Below, piece after piece: positions 3,401 to 51,771 of a stretch of DNA of 64,000 nucleotides. Source of the stretch: Hoyosella sp. YIM 151337 (GTDB taxonomy: Bacteria > Actinomycetota > Actinomycetes > Mycobacteriales > Mycobacteriaceae); NCBI RefSeq assembly GCF_026041215.1, contig NZ_JAPEIQ010000039.1, positions 124,001 through 188,000 on the forward strand, given 5' to 3'. A program made the translations under genes and the position numbers. Under the pieces are notes generated by a model that saw only the letters and a list, made by a program, of their open reading frames with translations, made no database searches and had not been told where the DNA came from. The first letter of the stretch is position 1. Each line of letters begins with the position of its first letter.

Positions 3401-3823
<423 letters not shown>

Positions 3824-45967: not shown

Positions 45968-47728
45968 TTATAAGCAGGCCTGGCTTTGCCGAGCGCCTTC
46001 CTGTGCCTGCTTGCACCAGGCTAGATGTCGGCCTGCCCCGGACGCGGGCTCGCTGTACGCGTGGGTGGTACGCACGATTCTGGCCCCCTCACCCAGCCAC
46101 CGAACGAGGAGACTCACTTCTTCAGGGTGCGTCCCGGCGAGTGGTGTTCCATCGGCGATCACGGTCTCCGCAGAGCGGGTGAGTACGTCGACGACATGCA
46201 ACGGAGACGTGCCCCGCGGTGCTTTCCCTGCGGCGGCAAGGCGGCCATACCGGATGATCGCCATGTCCCAACCACCGAGCCCATCACGGCGGCCAGCCAC
46301 GATCTCCTCAATGCCAGTCAGGGCGACCAGCCTATGACAGCGGTGCAGGGCGATGCCGAGCTGAGCGGCGCGGTCACGCAGGCGCGCCGCGGTCTCGAAC
46401 TTCTCGCTTGCGGCGAGTTCGTCGATTCGCCGCTTGAGCGCCGCAATCGGCGCATCGCTGGTGCCTGCGAGCACGCGTGAGGCTGCTGCCACAACTGAGT
46501 TGTAGTCGGCCGAACGTAGTGGGCCCTGCCGTGCTGCGGGGCAGCCGCCTACCGGTGCTGGCAAGCAATATTCGCTGTGGTCGTCATTGGAGGTGAGCCG
46601 GTGTGTACAGGTACGCAGGCCGCAGCTTTCCGCGATGGTCTCGGCAGCGGTGCGGGCGGCGGCGCGGCTGGGAAACGGCCCGAGCGCTGCTGGAGAAGGT
46701 ACGCGACTGACAGATAGTCGCGGAAACGGCTCGTCGGTGAGCCGGACCCACCATGACCGTTGCGGCCATTTCGATTTGCGGTTGTACGGCGGTGCGTGCG
46801 CAGCGAGCAGCCGGAGTTCTCGCACGCCTGCTTCGAGTGATGTTGCACAGGGGACATGATCAACCTGCTCCGCAAGCGCTACCATCTCGCGCATGCGGGA
46901 CCGCAGCTCAGAACCGGTGAAGTAGGAGCGGACGCGGCTATACAGATTTGTCGCGGTGCCGACGTACAGCACTTCATGTGAGGGTCCCCGGAACAGGTAG
47001 ACGCCTGGTCCACTAGGCAGATGGCTCGCGAGATTGCGTTTACGTCGGACGGCGTCGGGGACTGCCGGGTAGTACTGCTTGAGTTCCGCGAGGCTCTGAA
47101 TGCCCTGGTTTCCTACTCGCTCAAGCAACGCGTGGAGCACATCCACGGTTGCGCGCGCATCATCGAGCGCACGGTGCGTGGGCCGGTGCGGTATGCGGAA
47201 GTGTTCTGCGAGTGCTGAGAGCTTCACCGAAGGGGCTTCATCACGGGGCAGCACGCGGCGCGCCAGCTTCACAGTGCATAGCGGCTGACTGTGGGTCCAT
47301 GGCAGTTCACAGCGCGCCGCAGCGCTTTTCAGAAAACCCGTGTCGAATCCTGCATTGTGCGCGACCAGGGTCGCACCGCGTGCGAATTCGAGAAAGCTTG
47401 GGAGAACCTGCTCGATGGAGGGCGCGCGATAGACCATCGCGGTCGTGATCCCAGTGAGCTGAACGATGTGCGGGGGAATAGCGCGCCCTGGATTGACCAG
47501 GGTTGCGAACTCGCCCAAGATCTCACCGCCGCGTACCTTCACCGCGCCGATTTCAGTGATCTGGTCCTTCTCCGCGCTTCCACCGGTGGTTTCGAGGTCG
47601 ACGATGACGAACGTCGTGTCATGCAGTGAAGGCCCGAGTTCACCGAATGACAGTTGTTGCGCGCCGTGGCGGTGATCTGGCGCGGTCGCGGCGCTGTGAA
47701 CTGCGGAAACAATCGAGGTCGGGCTCAC
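45968..47728 (-). CDS. DEDDh exonuclease (DnaQ epsilon-like) fused to UvrC-type GIY-YIG endonuclease (Rv2191-like)
   Basis: About 586 residues if started at GTG 47728, which has AGGGTGAG five bases upstream; GTG 47737 and TTG 47758 are in-frame alternatives. The exonuclease domain (about residues 40-210) has FVIVDLETTG (D, E), the second Asp in HNAGFDTGFL and the HxxxxD motif HRALDDARAT. Next is GIY-YIG (about 240-325) with GPGVYLFRGPSHEVLYVGTATNLYSRVRSYF. The C-terminal part resembles UvrC's UvrB-binding and later region (AALKRRIDELAASEKFETAARLRDRAAQL, a UVR-like helix) but the UvrC RNase H endonuclease domain is absent. Likely acts in nucleotide excision repair or replication-associated trimming like E. 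coli Cho. Frequent in actinobacteria. Confidence 0.92.
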   Translation of the reverse strand: MSPTSIVSAVHSAATAPDHRHGAQQLSFGELGPSLHDTTFVIVDLETTGGSAEKDQITEIGAVKVRGGEILGEFATLVNPGRAIPPHIVQLTGITTAMVYRAPSIEQVLPSFLEFARGATLVAHNAGFDTGFLKSAAARCELPWTHSQPLCTVKLARRVLPRDEAPSVKLSALAEHFRIPHRPTHRALDDARATVDVLHALLERVGNQGIQSLAELKQYYPAVPDAVRRKRNLASHLPSGPGVYLFRGPSHEVLYVGTATNLYSRVRSYFTGSELRSRMREMVALAEQVDHVPCATSLEAGVRELRLLAAHAPPYNRKSKWPQRSWWVRLTDEPFPRLSVSRVPSPAALGPFPSRAAARTAAETIAESCGLRTCTHRLTSNDDHSEYCLPAPVGGCPAARQGPLRSADYNSVVAAASRVLAGTSDAPIAALKRRIDELAASEKFETAARLRDRAAQLGIALHRCHRLVALTGIEEIVAGRRDGLGGWDMAIIRYGRLAAAGKAPRGTSPLHVVDVLTRSAETVIADGTPLAGTHPEEVSLLVRWLGEGARIVRTTHAYSEPASGAGRHLAWCKQAQEGARQSQACL

Positions 47729-47758
47729 GCGGCTCACCCTAGCGGCGAGCTCTGACAA

Positions 47759-48180
47759 TCTTGTGCGACGCGCCAGTGCGCCTGGGCTTCTTGCCGGAAG
47801 GGGGACGGTGCGAGCGCTTGCGCGAACCTAGGGAGGCGCTCAGGTTGCTCTAAGCAAGCGTTTAGCTAGCACGTTGTGAGTAAGTGAGAGAAGCATCACA
47901 ATAAGTTTTTTTCGTGATGTGGAAGGTACTTCGACCCGTGTTCAGCTAGTCGTTACGTGGCGTTGGTGACAGCATCTAACTTTTCTCCTAGCAGGCTGTT
48001 TGGATGAAACAGCAGTGCGCAGGCGAGGGGGCGGAGTCCGGCTAACCGGAAAAAGCGCGCAGAACGGCATTCGACACGCGCGGCCTGCGCCGAGTGCGGA
48101 ATTGTCGCCTGCCTGAATGACGGCTGAGCTGCATGAATGTGATCGTCTGCGACGGACGGGTCCGTTACGATAGCAGGGTG
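47759..48180. other. Gene-free region between the nuclease fusion and the riboswitch
   Basis: About 420 bp with no credible gene. It contains CATCAC (47889) and GTGATG (about 47909) flanking an A/T-rich spacer with TTTTTTT, a palindrome-like element; a GCTGTTT-GGAT-GAAACAGC hairpin at about 47994-48012; and a TTACGAT -10-like hexamer at about 48165. It presumably holds the promoters for the flanking divergent genes. Nothing else was recognised. Confidence 0.45.
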
Positions 48181-48239
48181 TGACTTCTACCACAAGAATC
48201 GCCGGTTAGGCCATTGCGTGGACGGTTCTGATTCTCTTT

Positions 48240-48262
48240 CGTAATCTTTTCGAGACCTTTGG
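48240..48262 (+). promoter_or_regulatory. Shared upstream element, copy 1
   Basis: CGTAATCT-TT-TCGAGAC followed by CTTTGG lies about 35 bp before the riboswitch of the first NlpC/P60 gene. A near-copy, CGTAATCT-AA-TCGAGAC followed by TTTGGG, lies before the second NlpC/P60 gene (49214-49236). The match is 15 of 15 outside a 2-base spacer. It may be a common operator (MtrA-type regulators control such genes in mycobacteria) or a common promoter/leader part; the protein that binds is not identifiable by eye. Confidence 0.5.
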
Positions 48263-48297
48263 AGTCTTGCCGACCCGACCGGGATGGCGCCAGAGGT

Positions 48298-48440
48298 CAG
48301 CCGCCTAATCAGCGCCCACACATTCGTGCGCTGAGCCGGGGACCCACCTTGTTGGGGTGAATCTCGCACCGGAACGCACACGGGGCGAGTAGGGCCGTCT
48401 TCCAGGCCCGAACCCGTCAGCTAACTCGGTCGGCGGTCGA
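48298..48440 (+). ncRNA. ydaO-yuaA riboswitch (cyclic di-AMP)
   Basis: The conserved core of the ydaO class is clearly present in order: CGCCTAATC, GCCGGGGACCCA at about 48334, GGGGTGAATC at about 48354, GAGTAGGG at about 48387, CCCGAACCCGTCAGCTAA at about 48407 and the closing GGCGG that pairs with the first CCGCC (P1). It lies in the 5' leader of the secreted NlpC/P60 endopeptidase gene. In actinobacteria this class precedes cell-wall hydrolase and resuscitation-promoting-factor genes and senses c-di-AMP. No terminator with a T tract separates it from the start codon, so the mode of control cannot be told from sequence. Confidence 0.92.
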
Positions 48441-48467
48441 TGGAAGAAACAGGAGACGTTTTTAACC

Positions 48468-49064
48468 ATGGCCACGAAGTCGCTTAAGCGGACTGTTCGC
48501 ACTGCTGTCGCTGCTGGGATCGCAGCAGGTGCGCTCGCTCTTCCAGCTGCGCCCGCAATGGCAGCTCCGGTGACCATTCCGGGAATCGGTACCTTCGACG
48601 TTCCGGATAACTTCGCGATTCCGACCGAATTCGAGGTTCCTCAGCTTCCTCAGGTTTCTGGCATCGAGGTTCCCGAACTCAACACCGGCAGCATCGGTGA
48701 TGTTGCCGCACCCTTCTCGAACGGTGACCGCGTCGCGGACGCGGCCCTGAGCAAGGTCGGCTCCCCATACGTGTGGGGTGCTGCGGGTCCTAACGCGTTC
48801 GACTGCTCCGGTCTCGTGTACTGGGCACACCAGCAGATGGGCGTTAACGTGCCGCGCACCAGCCAGGCTCAGGCCGGTGGCGGGGCCCCCGTGGGGTACA
48901 ACGACCTCCGCCGCGGCGACGTCGTTCTTTTCTACGGCGGTGCCTCGCACGCTGCGATCTACATCGGCAATGGCCAGGTTGTGCACGCGCTGAACTCGTC
49001 GCAGCCGGTAAAGGTCGACTCCCTCGGGTCGCTGCCCTTCCACAGCGCACGCCGCTACGCGTGA
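48468..49064 (+). CDS. Secreted NlpC/P60 peptidoglycan endopeptidase, short form
   Basis: A 198-residue protein with a Sec signal peptide (MATKSLKRTV then a hydrophobic core, cleavage likely after ALPAAPAMAA at about residue 32). A repetitive linker (TIPGIGTFDVPDNFAIPTEFEVPQLPQ in parts) leads to a ~115-residue NlpC/P60 domain. Catalytic residues: Cys in NAFDCSGLVYWAHQ, His in SHAAIYIGNGQ and a third polar residue, His, in VVHALN. It should cut D-Glu-mDAP stems. AGGAGA lies 11 bases before ATG 48468. Expression is under the c-di-AMP riboswitch. Resembles RipD-type short enzymes; not a fusion with the larger enzyme encoded next. Confidence 0.92.
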   Translation: MATKSLKRTVRTAVAAGIAAGALALPAAPAMAAPVTIPGIGTFDVPDNFAIPTEFEVPQLPQVSGIEVPELNTGSIGDVAAPFSNGDRVADAALSKVGSPYVWGAAGPNAFDCSGLVYWAHQQMGVNVPRTSQAQAGGGAPVGYNDLRRGDVVLFYGGASHAAIYIGNGQVVHALNSSQPVKVDSLGSLPFHSARRYA

Positions 49065-49129
49065 TTCGAAGCCGCTGAAGAGCGCGGTTGATCGCCGTGT
49101 TTGTGCGGCGGAGCCAAATTGATTTCGTG

Positions 49130-49166
49130 ATGTGGGGCGAGGCCGGTAATCGGCCCGCCCCACATC
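49130..49166 (+). terminator. Terminator after the first NlpC/P60 gene
   Basis: GATGTGGGGCG (about 49130) pairs exactly with CGCCCCACATC (about 49156-49166), with an inner GGCCG/CGGCC stem around TAAT. It lies about 65 bp after the stop, followed by GCATTGG, no T tract. Strong hairpin, likely terminator. Confidence 0.75.
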
Positions 49167-49213
49167 GCATTGGCAGGGACTGAACGCTTAAGTGGACAGA
49201 CGCTAGGGTGTTC

Positions 49214-49236
49214 CGTAATCTAATCGAGACTTTGGG
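49214..49236 (+). promoter_or_regulatory. Shared upstream element, copy 2
   Basis: The second copy of the CGTAATCT-N2-TCGAGAC element, here with spacer AA, lies about 96-118 bp before the start of the larger NlpC/P60 gene. No ydaO-type leader follows it, so this gene shares the element but not the riboswitch. Confidence 0.5.
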
Positions 49237-49331
49237 CCTGCCTCGCCGCTGTTTCGGTGCGTGCTGGGTCGTGCTTCCGCGTGCGGCGGGTGATCTGGCC
49301 GCCTGCGGGTTCCGCTTCGTGTGATTTTGGG

Positions 49332-50387
49332 GTGACAGTGGGGGCTTCGGGAAATCGCTCGCTAGCGCGGGTGGCATATGCGGCATTAGCTGCCGTCTTC
49401 GTTGTTCTGTTAACCATCACGCACGCTCCGCGAGTGACAGCGGACCCTGTTATCACTGACGCGACTGAGGCCCTGGAACGACTGTCTGAACTCAGCAGGG
49501 AAGCAACGCGGGCGAACGATCAGGTACTCACCGCGCAGATCCGCTTGGAGGAGTTGCAGAGTCAGCTGGCGGACGCGGAGCGCCGCGAGCAGGACAGCGC
49601 GCGACTGATGACTGAGGCGCGCGGCCAGATCGAAGCGCTTCAGGAAGTAGTCGACAAGTTCGCATTCGCGAATTACCAGGGCATCCGGTTCGACTCGCTC
49701 TTCGCGCTGCTCACGAGCGACTCGCCGCAAGACCTGATCACGCAGATGTCCGCGTTCGAGATCATCTCAAGGGACACCTTTCAGCGCATCAAAGACTTCG
49801 AGTCGGCCCGGGAAACATATGCCGATGCGGAACAAGTCGCGCGGGAGGCGGCTGCGCAGTTCCGTGCGCTCACGGAGGATGCGCGCACCCAGCACAATCT
49901 CCTCGCGCGTGAGCAAGCCGCGCTTCAGGAGCAGATTGAGCGAATCAAGGCGCTGTACGAATCCTTGAGTGCGGAAGAACGTCAGGCGTGGGCAGGTGTC
50001 ACCGTGCCGCCCGGTTTTGATCCCAATTCGCTGCGAGGTTCGGGTGTGGGGGTCGAGATTGCCCGCGCCGCCTTGAGCCGGCTCGGTGCGCCCTACGTGT
50101 GGGGCGCGACAGGGCCCGATCAATTCGACTGTTCCGGTCTCGTAATGTGGGCGCACAATCAGGCGGGACGACCAATCCCGAGAACAAGCCAAATGCAGGC
50201 CAACGGTGGAATGCCAGTTTCGCCAAGCGACATTCAGCCGGGGGATGTGGTGATCTACTACAGGGACGCCACACACGTGGGGCTGTACATCGGTAATGGT
50301 CAAATCGTTCACGCGTCGACGTTCGGTGTCCCGGTTAAAGTGGACGCGGTGAACTCCGCACCGATTCATTCGATCAGGCGCTACTAA
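49332..50387 (+). CDS. Secreted NlpC/P60 endopeptidase with N-terminal coiled coil (Rv2190c-like)
   Basis: About 351 residues started at GTG 49332 (VTVGASGNRS); GTG 49338 is equally possible, with GGGG five bases upstream, and the frame is open back to 49257. A signal peptide (LARVAYAALAAVFVVLLTIT) ends near TADP. Residues of about 40-215 are a charged heptad-rich helical region (coiled coil), as in RipA/RipC-type enzymes where it holds the enzyme inactive or binds FtsEX. The C-terminal NlpC/P60 domain has Cys in DQFDCSGLVMWAHN, His in THVGLYIGNG and His in IVHAST. Orthologue of Rv2190c. The lipoprotein gene starts 10 bp after its stop. Confidence 0.92.
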   Translation: MTVGASGNRSLARVAYAALAAVFVVLLTITHAPRVTADPVITDATEALERLSELSREATRANDQVLTAQIRLEELQSQLADAERREQDSARLMTEARGQIEALQEVVDKFAFANYQGIRFDSLFALLTSDSPQDLITQMSAFEIISRDTFQRIKDFESARETYADAEQVAREAAAQFRALTEDARTQHNLLAREQAALQEQIERIKALYESLSAEERQAWAGVTVPPGFDPNSLRGSGVGVEIARAALSRLGAPYVWGATGPDQFDCSGLVMWAHNQAGRPIPRTSQMQANGGMPVSPSDIQPGDVVIYYRDATHVGLYIGNGQIVHASTFGVPVKVDAVNSAPIHSIRRY

Positions 50388-50397
50388 TCTATGCCGT

Positions 50398-51771
50398 ATG
50401 GCCCTGAATCGTGGATGGGGTGCAGGGAGTGCGCTTCTTCTTGCGGGCTGCCTTGCGCTGACTAGCTGCACGGGCGGTGGCGCATCGGGAGCGGGCACAA
50501 CGTCAGAAGCCCCCCAGCCCGCGAGTACGGACAACCGGGTGCTTTCCACGTTCGAAAGTGAGCGTCTCGCTGGCCTTCAGAAGATGTTAGACGCCTGGGC
50601 GCAGGCCCAGCGTGACGGGGACCTCGAGGCGCTGAACCGGGTTTTCCATCACCGCGCGAACAGTGCCTTCATCGCCGATGAGCAGCGCCGCACGGAGCAC
50701 ATCGCTGCGGTACCGGTGGCCGAGTGGCGATATGAAGTGACGTCCGCGCCCGAAATCTTCGTACCGGGGGACGTCGCCGATCAGGTTGGTGCAGCGAACA
50801 TCTGGGCACCACGAGTGCGGCTTGTCTACCGTTTGGAGGGAGAGCGCACACCGGTGCGCCGCGAGTTTCGGCTGCTTGCTGCGGCGCCAGCCGCCGCCGG
50901 CGGTGCGTGGTCGCTGGTCGATAATGGCACACTCGTGGCCGAGGTGCCCGAGTGGCGCCTGCCATGGGATTTCGGTCCGGTCCGCACTGATACGGTGCCG
51001 TGGCGCGGGGCGAACTCTCTTGTGCTTGGACATCCCGGTGACAGCGACATTATCGCTGCAACGGTCGGCCACCTTCCGGGGGCGCTCGACGCTGCGGATG
51101 ACTTCTGGAAGCAGCAGTGGGATTCCACCGTAGTTGTCTACATCGCAGGGTCCCACGAAGAGTTCTCCGCGCTTACCGGCGGTTTCTACGACCATTCGCC
51201 TGCGGCAGCGATCGCGATTGCCGATGTTCGCCGCAATGAACCCGCTGACTCAATCAGCGGCGCCGCGGGCCACACGGTAAGCGGACAGCGAATCGTCGTG
51301 TCGGCACCAGCTTTCCGTCAGCTCGATGCGAAAGCACAGCTCTCTGTCCTCCGCCACGAGTTGACCCATGTCATAACCAGGGCGGTGACCGATCCGGCTA
51401 CTCCACTCTGGCTCGTCGAAGGTACAGCTGAGTACGTGGGACGCAAGCCGATGGAAACCCAGCTGGAAGACGGCGCACCGCTGACACGTGCCCTCGTTCA
51501 GTCGCAGGGCCCGCCGGATCGGCTTCCTCGTGATGACCACTTTCGGGCGGGCGGACAAACCACCTCCCTCGCATATGAACTGGCCTGGACTTTTGCGGTC
51601 TTTCTGGCGGAAAAATTCGGTAAAGCCGCGATTCCGGAAATCTTCGCGGAACTTGCCGCGCCCGGAAGCGGACAAGGTGTCGTTGACGAGCGGATGCGCC
51701 AGGCGACGGGCGAGACATTGGCCGAACTTGTCGGAGAGTGGGGGCAATGGTTAGTGGAGAGAATGCCGTGA
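50398..51771 (+). CDS. Secreted gluzincin-like metalloprotease lipoprotein
   Basis: A 457-residue protein with signal peptide and lipobox LTSC (Cys at about residue 24). After a Thr/Pro/Ser linker comes a ~130-residue domain with NTF2/SnoaL-like pattern (LAGLQKMLDAWAQAQRDGDLEALNRVFHHRA), then a peptidase domain. It has HELTH with a downstream Glu in LVEGTAEYV, 25 residues later: the HExxH + E arrangement of gluzincin metalloproteases. No known substrate. It sits 10 bp after the larger NlpC/P60 gene and 63 bp before pimB', so a cell-envelope role is likely. Start at ATG 50398 has no clear ribosome-binding site, consistent with coupled translation. Confidence 0.82.
   Translation: MALNRGWGAGSALLLAGCLALTSCTGGGASGAGTTSEAPQPASTDNRVLSTFESERLAGLQKMLDAWAQAQRDGDLEALNRVFHHRANSAFIADEQRRTEHIAAVPVAEWRYEVTSAPEIFVPGDVADQVGAANIWAPRVRLVYRLEGERTPVRREFRLLAAAPAAAGGAWSLVDNGTLVAEVPEWRLPWDFGPVRTDTVPWRGANSLVLGHPGDSDIIAATVGHLPGALDAADDFWKQQWDSTVVVYIAGSHEEFSALTGGFYDHSPAAAIAIADVRRNEPADSISGAAGHTVSGQRIVVSAPAFRQLDAKAQLSVLRHELTHVITRAVTDPATPLWLVEGTAEYVGRKPMETQLEDGAPLTRALVQSQGPPDRLPRDDHFRAGGQTTSLAYELAWTFAVFLAEKFGKAAIPEIFAELAAPGSGQGVVDERMRQATGETLAELVGEWGQWLVERMP

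Follow-up and report, generated by a model that had tools for sequence, protein, structure and literature searches.

How does a c-di-AMP riboswitch act on a gene when there is no terminator between them, and what is to be made of its standing ahead of only one of two neighbouring endopeptidase genes? Both questions are raised by a leader of Hoyosella sp. YIM 151337 that lies within the stretch of 64,000 nucleotides analysed here (the window). It is considered likely that this leader is a ydaO-class (RF00379) c-di-AMP OFF switch on the translation of the first gene, nlpC1, in which a pseudoknot would hinder loading of the 30S subunit. A published case from C. glutamicum is thereby extended to Hoyosella, and the useful part is the anatomy, as the placing of a pseudoknot against or upon the Shine-Dalgarno sequence gives a testable model of the expression platform.

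The c-di-AMP aptamer and the gene behind it

Two Rfam matches exceed their gathering scores in a cmscan search of the whole window, RNase P RNA (bacterial class A, 3407-3822, 269.7 bits) and RF00379. The latter occupies 48292-48450 of the forward strand and scores 84.8 bits (E 2.6e-18), where the gathering score is 38 bits; the match covers model positions 1-134 of 134, so that both score and length place it in the family. The first-pass annotation had recognised a ydaO core within 48298-48467, an interval that begins just inside the aptamer and stops one base short of the nlpC1 start codon (ATG at 48468), and the Infernal search confirms this core.

The predicted P1 stem of the aptamer joins 48302-48305 to 48432-48435. 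Folding and pairing point to a hairpin, GGGCC-GUCUUCCA-GGCCC (48392-48409), whose loop holds the 5' strand of a pseudoknot, UCUUCCA (48398-48404), and this hairpin loop can form 7 bp with the 3' tail of the aptamer at UGGAAGA (48441-48447). The paper on the crystallised ydaO aptamer likewise speaks of its pseudoknot, and the sequence given there has a matching complementarity, CUCCUUCG:CGAAGGAG (PMC5393176). The Shine-Dalgarno sequence AGGAG (48451-48455) follows 3 nt past the pseudoknot and 12 nt ahead of the ATG. When folded without the pseudoknot, the whole leader is as stable as its shuffles (z -0.19).

A terminator scan found no intrinsic terminator of the B. subtilis type between the aptamer and the ATG, where a distance of only 17 nt leaves no space for one. 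A T5 run at 48459-48463 is missing from L097 and L098, the other two leaders read from this genus, and so is not a conserved terminator tail; an intrinsic terminator in the leader was rejected on both grounds. The minimum-energy fold contains a start-codon hairpin, which was treated as chance since its GUUUUU arm is missing from the same two leaders. The earlier claims that no terminator intervenes and that the mechanism is not standard attenuation are thus in keeping with these results: attenuation by a terminator is unlikely, and the C. glutamicum relative is reported to act on translation (PMC9960051).

The controlled gene, nlpC1 (48468-49064, forward strand), encodes an NlpC/P60 endopeptidase of 198 aa (PF00877, 2.9e-23), the N-terminus of which looks signal-like and suggests, by eye, a secreted protein. 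Its closest relatives are found in Hoyosella altamirensis (90% identity), H. rhizosphaerae (74%) and Lolliginicoccus (71%). The next gene on the same strand, nlpC2 (49338-50387), encodes a second NlpC/P60 endopeptidase (PF00877, 5.8e-23) with a long N-terminal region. Its frame is open from 49257 and the start at 49338 is provisional; by its position the protein is presumably RipC-like. With a start of nlpC2 near 49338, about 0.27 kb separates the coding regions and about 0.87 kb the start codons, so that the distance of 0.9 kb given in the first-pass annotation fits only when taken from start to start.

A search of 47700-50500 with the Rfam models at E up to 1 found no aptamer ahead of nlpC2, and its sole other match was a microRNA at 20.7 bits against a cut-off of 100. 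A weak second aptamer was therefore rejected, and the leader belongs solely to the short endopeptidase, as had been claimed. This is the layout of RSnlpC in C. glutamicum, with the aptamer directly 5' of an NlpC/P60 gene and another NlpC/P60 gene next to it. The same genome encodes a diadenylate cyclase domain (PF02457, 9.4e-26) and carries one other RF00379 aptamer (L002), which precedes an Rpf-like transglycosylase gene.

Pseudoknot and ribosome-binding site in related leaders

A family-level sample yielded 104 aptamers in 52 of 61 genomes, 99 of them over the cut-off and five just under it. The start codon lies 27-42 nt past the CAGCUAAC core in 103 of the 104, too close for a terminator to fit in these leaders either; the remaining one (L140), with no start codon within 26-45 nt, was dropped and 103 were analysed. 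The leaders were classed by phmmer, using two proteins encoded by the genome under study as queries, giving 53 of NlpC type, among them one weak call (L116, E 0.0007), and 47 of Rpf type, with L115, L133 and L182 unclassified. The last three, as well as L140, run into NlpC-like frames, as read from their DCSG motif. For L096 the nearer of two possible starts was used, and Shine-Dalgarno sites were set by a word list and a spacing of 4-15 nt.

Among these 103 relatives, with fixed windows, the hairpin loop matches its own tail with a mean score of 15.42, as against 11.68 for permuted tails (maximum 12.97 in 2000), although related genomes are not independent and the permutation numbers are not probabilities. 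A helix score of at least 10 is reached in 103 of 103 family-level and 30 of 30 class-level leaders, counts that weigh little because the average is 11.68 even for permuted tails and 12.8 for shuffled ones; the weight lies in the difference from the permuted tails and not in the short helix as such. For the rpf class no permutation out of 2000 reaches the observed mean. For 56 nlpC-type sequences 95 out of 2000 do so, and there the permuted tails are nearly as good because the sequence is almost invariant within the class. Loop and tail covary in L165 (CACUCG:CGAGUG), L115 (UGUUUC:GAAACA) and L133 (UUUGUGUCC:GGAUACAAG). The deviant loops of L125, L138 and L090 show no preference for their own tail and match many from other leaders equally well.

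The two classes differ in where the predicted pseudoknot falls. In 44 of 47 rpf leaders its 3' strand shares 3-5 nt with the Shine-Dalgarno sequence, whereas in 52 of 53 nlpC leaders it stops 0-7 nt ahead of it (exactly 3 nt in 33 of the 53), with an overlap in just one. The gap of 3 nt in the window's leader is thus the commonest of its class.

At class level 141 of 197 genomes were positive, and the best-scoring 30 loci, one a genome and not a random draw, were read. The start codon follows 27-39 nt past the core in 26 of these 30. At the other four (L187, L192, L197 and L201) no start codon falls in the range of 27-42 nt; they may serve a different target or use another kind of expression platform.

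Promoter-like sites, MtrA-type boxes and the paired genes

Upstream of the aptamer a -35-like TGGACG (48219-48224, forward strand) stands 17 nt before a -10-like TAATCT (48242-48247). A stricter simple promoter scan found no promoter upstream of the aptamer, so that this reading is one of resemblance. In a profile of 56 aligned nlpC-type upstream regions, ttGaca appears within one base of the same place with a spacer of 18 nt. The -10-like hexamer is overlapped by a direct repeat, CGTAATC-TTTT-CGAGACC (48240-48257). The nlpC2 gene is preceded by a similar arrangement at 49193-49231, a promoter-like TGGACA-N17-TAATCT with the box CGTAATC-TAAT-CGAGACT (49214-49231), both on the forward strand.

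Both boxes agree with the motif published for MtrA, in which cG(T/A)nA(C/T)c is directly repeated after a spacer of 4 nt (PMC6265350), and are regarded as putative MtrA sites. The search pattern, which was derived from the window and a few relatives, matches twice in the window and in none of 100 shuffles. With up to one mismatch it occurs genome-wide only at 48240 and 49214, exactly in both cases, with one match for the reversed control; a looser pattern adds a single one-mismatch site on another contig, and its control has two matches. The reversed control of the looser pattern also finds sites in a fair share of the 61 genomes, with 0-3 a strand, and a single one-mismatch box therefore means little. 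A box with up to three mismatches lies upstream of 52 of 53 NlpC-type aptamers, of all four other NlpC-like ones and of one of 47 Rpf-type aptamers, the last class being the sole control for this count. In C. glutamicum, MtrAB has been reported as a repressor of nlpC (PMC9960051).

Between the two genes a predicted stem-loop without a U-tract (49127-49168, forward strand) has a folding energy of -38.8 kcal/mol and a z of -5.78. An inverted repeat with arms of 12-18 nt lies within about 30-45 nt behind the nlpC stop codon in all five Hoyosella and Lolliginicoccus loci viewed, with a core that is alike in Hoyosella and different in Lolliginicoccus. The stem-loop is probably a transcript end. Given a box and a promoter-like site at each gene and a strong hairpin between them, nlpC1 and nlpC2 look like two transcription units that are probably under one regulator, the first alone being subject to a c-di-AMP veto. 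A single leader governing both genes is less likely in view of the hairpin and the second promoter-like site.

The presence of the aptamer on only one of two NlpC genes is no fixed rule among relatives. In one locus (L230, G021:C27:84000-88200) a short and a long NlpC gene each carry an aptamer. The two aptamers are about 0.9 kb from each other and the second, with a deviant core, scores 36.5 bits, just under the cut-off; each of these tandem genes also has an MtrA-type box. In three genomes (G011, G017 and G043) an aptamer precedes a longer NlpC frame.

No RF00379 match was found in nine of the 61 family-level genomes, and five of these nine nevertheless keep a pair of neighbouring NlpC genes in which the second is RipC-like. 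In two of the five (G004 and G035) the first gene has a longer frame. RF00379 was absent around all five pairs (G022, G048, G028, G004 and G035) even at E 0.5. G022 and G048 have an exact MtrA-type box at each gene of the pair and G028 has one at the first gene; the box in G004 carries one mismatch. Relatives that keep an adjacent NlpC pair with no recognisable aptamer are represented by the loci L216, L217, L227, L219 and L220, some of which have MtrA-type boxes.

These observations bear on the proposal in the first-pass annotation that c-di-AMP would balance one hydrolase against the other. The sequence does not show a balance of this kind. What is seen is an MtrA-type box and a promoter-like -10 element at each gene, and a single private c-di-AMP input at one of them. 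The one-of-two arrangement is not obligatory, given the locus with two aptamers and the five aptamer-less genomes that keep the pair. The layout suggests that MtrA acts on both endopeptidases alike and c-di-AMP withdraws one only.

A proposed pseudoknot platform, its rivals and known systems

It is proposed that transcription would begin just past the TAATCT within the MtrA-type box, giving an mRNA with about 40 nt ahead of the aptamer. Binding of c-di-AMP would close P1 and the pseudoknot, and the closed pseudoknot would present a rigid helix 3 nt 5' of AGGAG that hinders loading of the 30S subunit, so that high c-di-AMP would mean less of the nlpC1 endopeptidase. Because nlpC2 has its own promoter-like site and MtrA-type box behind the stem-loop, it would escape this control. 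Ribosome loading would be obstructed directly in the rpf leaders and from the side in the nlpC leaders, and since the Shine-Dalgarno sequence of the nlpC class lies beside the pseudoknot and not in it, the block there would be steric and perhaps partial.

More tentatively, with slightly less than even confidence, it may be surmised that the c-di-AMP riboswitches of actinomycetes largely lack a separate expression platform. The ligand-closed pseudoknot would itself be the platform, overlapping the Shine-Dalgarno sequence in rpf or standing a fixed few nucleotides before it in nlpC, and a single RNA family would thus veto the translation of two kinds of cell-wall hydrolase, to a different degree in each. 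Counting against this reading are the four of 30 class-level loci that lack a start codon at 27-42 nt, as well as the description of Streptomyces rpfA as transcriptionally controlled in a review.

According to that review, a disA mutant of Streptomyces shows a five-fold increase in rpfA transcripts, and ligand binding is said to cause premature termination. Control of this kind, through pausing or early termination with no intrinsic terminator, is quite improbable for nlpC1, where only 17 nt remain to the start codon and no terminator lies there. It is very improbable that the aptamer is a relic, uncoupled in this organism. The retention of the adjacent NlpC pair in five of the nine genomes without RF00379 indicates that the c-di-AMP input can be absent; however, the match in the window is full length and high-scoring, its core and pseudoknot are conserved, and related species have closely similar leaders.

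The remaining rival, considered unlikely, shares the same loop with the pseudoknot. On ligand binding, 48396-48402 (CGUCUUC) would pair directly with the Shine-Dalgarno region at 48452-48458 (GGAGACG), in seven pairs of which one is G-U. This is akin to the suggestion of Reich et al., whose study of C. glutamicum nlpC left the mechanism open, that CTCC pairs with GGAG of the ribosome-binding site (PMC9960051). The computed energy of -9.4 kcal/mol in the window's leader exceeds the -9.1 of the pseudoknot, and such pairing is the stronger of the two in five of 56 nlpC-type leaders, the window included. It keeps six pairs, by eye, and -7.8 in L097 and L098 of the genus, but only -4.6 in L084 and L085, leaders whose tails match Lolliginicoccus. 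Over the 56 leaders the loop pairs with its own Shine-Dalgarno region at an average of -5.1, no better than when permuted (237 of 300 as good or better). With the pseudoknot strand it averages -8.0, a strand that was chosen with its own loop, so that the corresponding 0 of 300 is biased in its favour and the fixed-window comparison (15.42 against 11.68) is the fair test. In L133 the change in the loop is accompanied by a change in the pseudoknot strand while the Shine-Dalgarno sequence is unchanged. Direct pairing would also require the pseudoknot of the crystal structure to open on binding. Comparison across relatives thus favours the pseudoknot over pairing with the Shine-Dalgarno sequence.

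The locus is of a kind already known, as it reproduces the arrangement of C. glutamicum and is the counterpart of the cg2402/nlpC switch. There, RF00379 leaders precede rpf1 and cg2402/nlpC, and the nlpC leader has been tested as a c-di-AMP OFF switch and reported to act on translation. In that study c-di-AMP lowers the reporter in E. coli and in a pdeA deletion, the reporter transcript is unchanged, the second gene of an artificial operon is unaffected and aptamer mutations abolish the response (PMC9960051). The lowering of protein and not mRNA is reported for C. glutamicum only, and a ligand response, the OFF direction and the translational level would apply to nlpC1 by analogy with this homologue. 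Shared features are the aptamer directly 5' of an NlpC/P60 gene, the lack of a canonical terminator, a second nlpC-type gene next to the first, and MtrA, which is among the reported regulators there and is represented here by putative boxes. The start of transcription would also agree, since by RNA-seq the cg2402 messenger begins 42 nt upstream of the Rfam match and its 5' UTR extends 12 nt beyond that match (PMC3890552), and in the window the last base of TAATCT lies 45 nt upstream of the Rfam match. Unlike in C. glutamicum, where the genes are described as one operon, the two genes here are separated by a strong hairpin, with an MtrA-type box at each.

The leader shares its aptamer family with B. 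subtilis ydaO/kimA, the prototype of RF00379, but the latter acts by premature transcription termination (PMC9960051) and no terminator was found here. A mechanism without a terminator is not new, having been reported for C. glutamicum nlpC and, in a review that describes c-di-AMP riboswitch regulation without a canonical terminator, for S. coelicolor. The rpf leaders (L002, C. glutamicum rpf1, and the rpfA genes of Streptomyces and mycobacteria) have the same aptamer and a cell-wall hydrolase as target, and those of the family-level sample also have a start codon close behind the aptamer. They differ from the nlpC leaders by the pseudoknot that lies over the Shine-Dalgarno sequence and by the near absence of an MtrA-type box of the nlpC form. 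A literature search for the layout of pseudoknot and Shine-Dalgarno sequence gave no title besides PMC9960051, and the layout is not claimed as unpublished. What is added here to the known systems is the position of the pseudoknot relative to the ribosome-binding site by class, the paired MtrA-type boxes, and the observation that an aptamer on one of two NlpC genes is not a rule.
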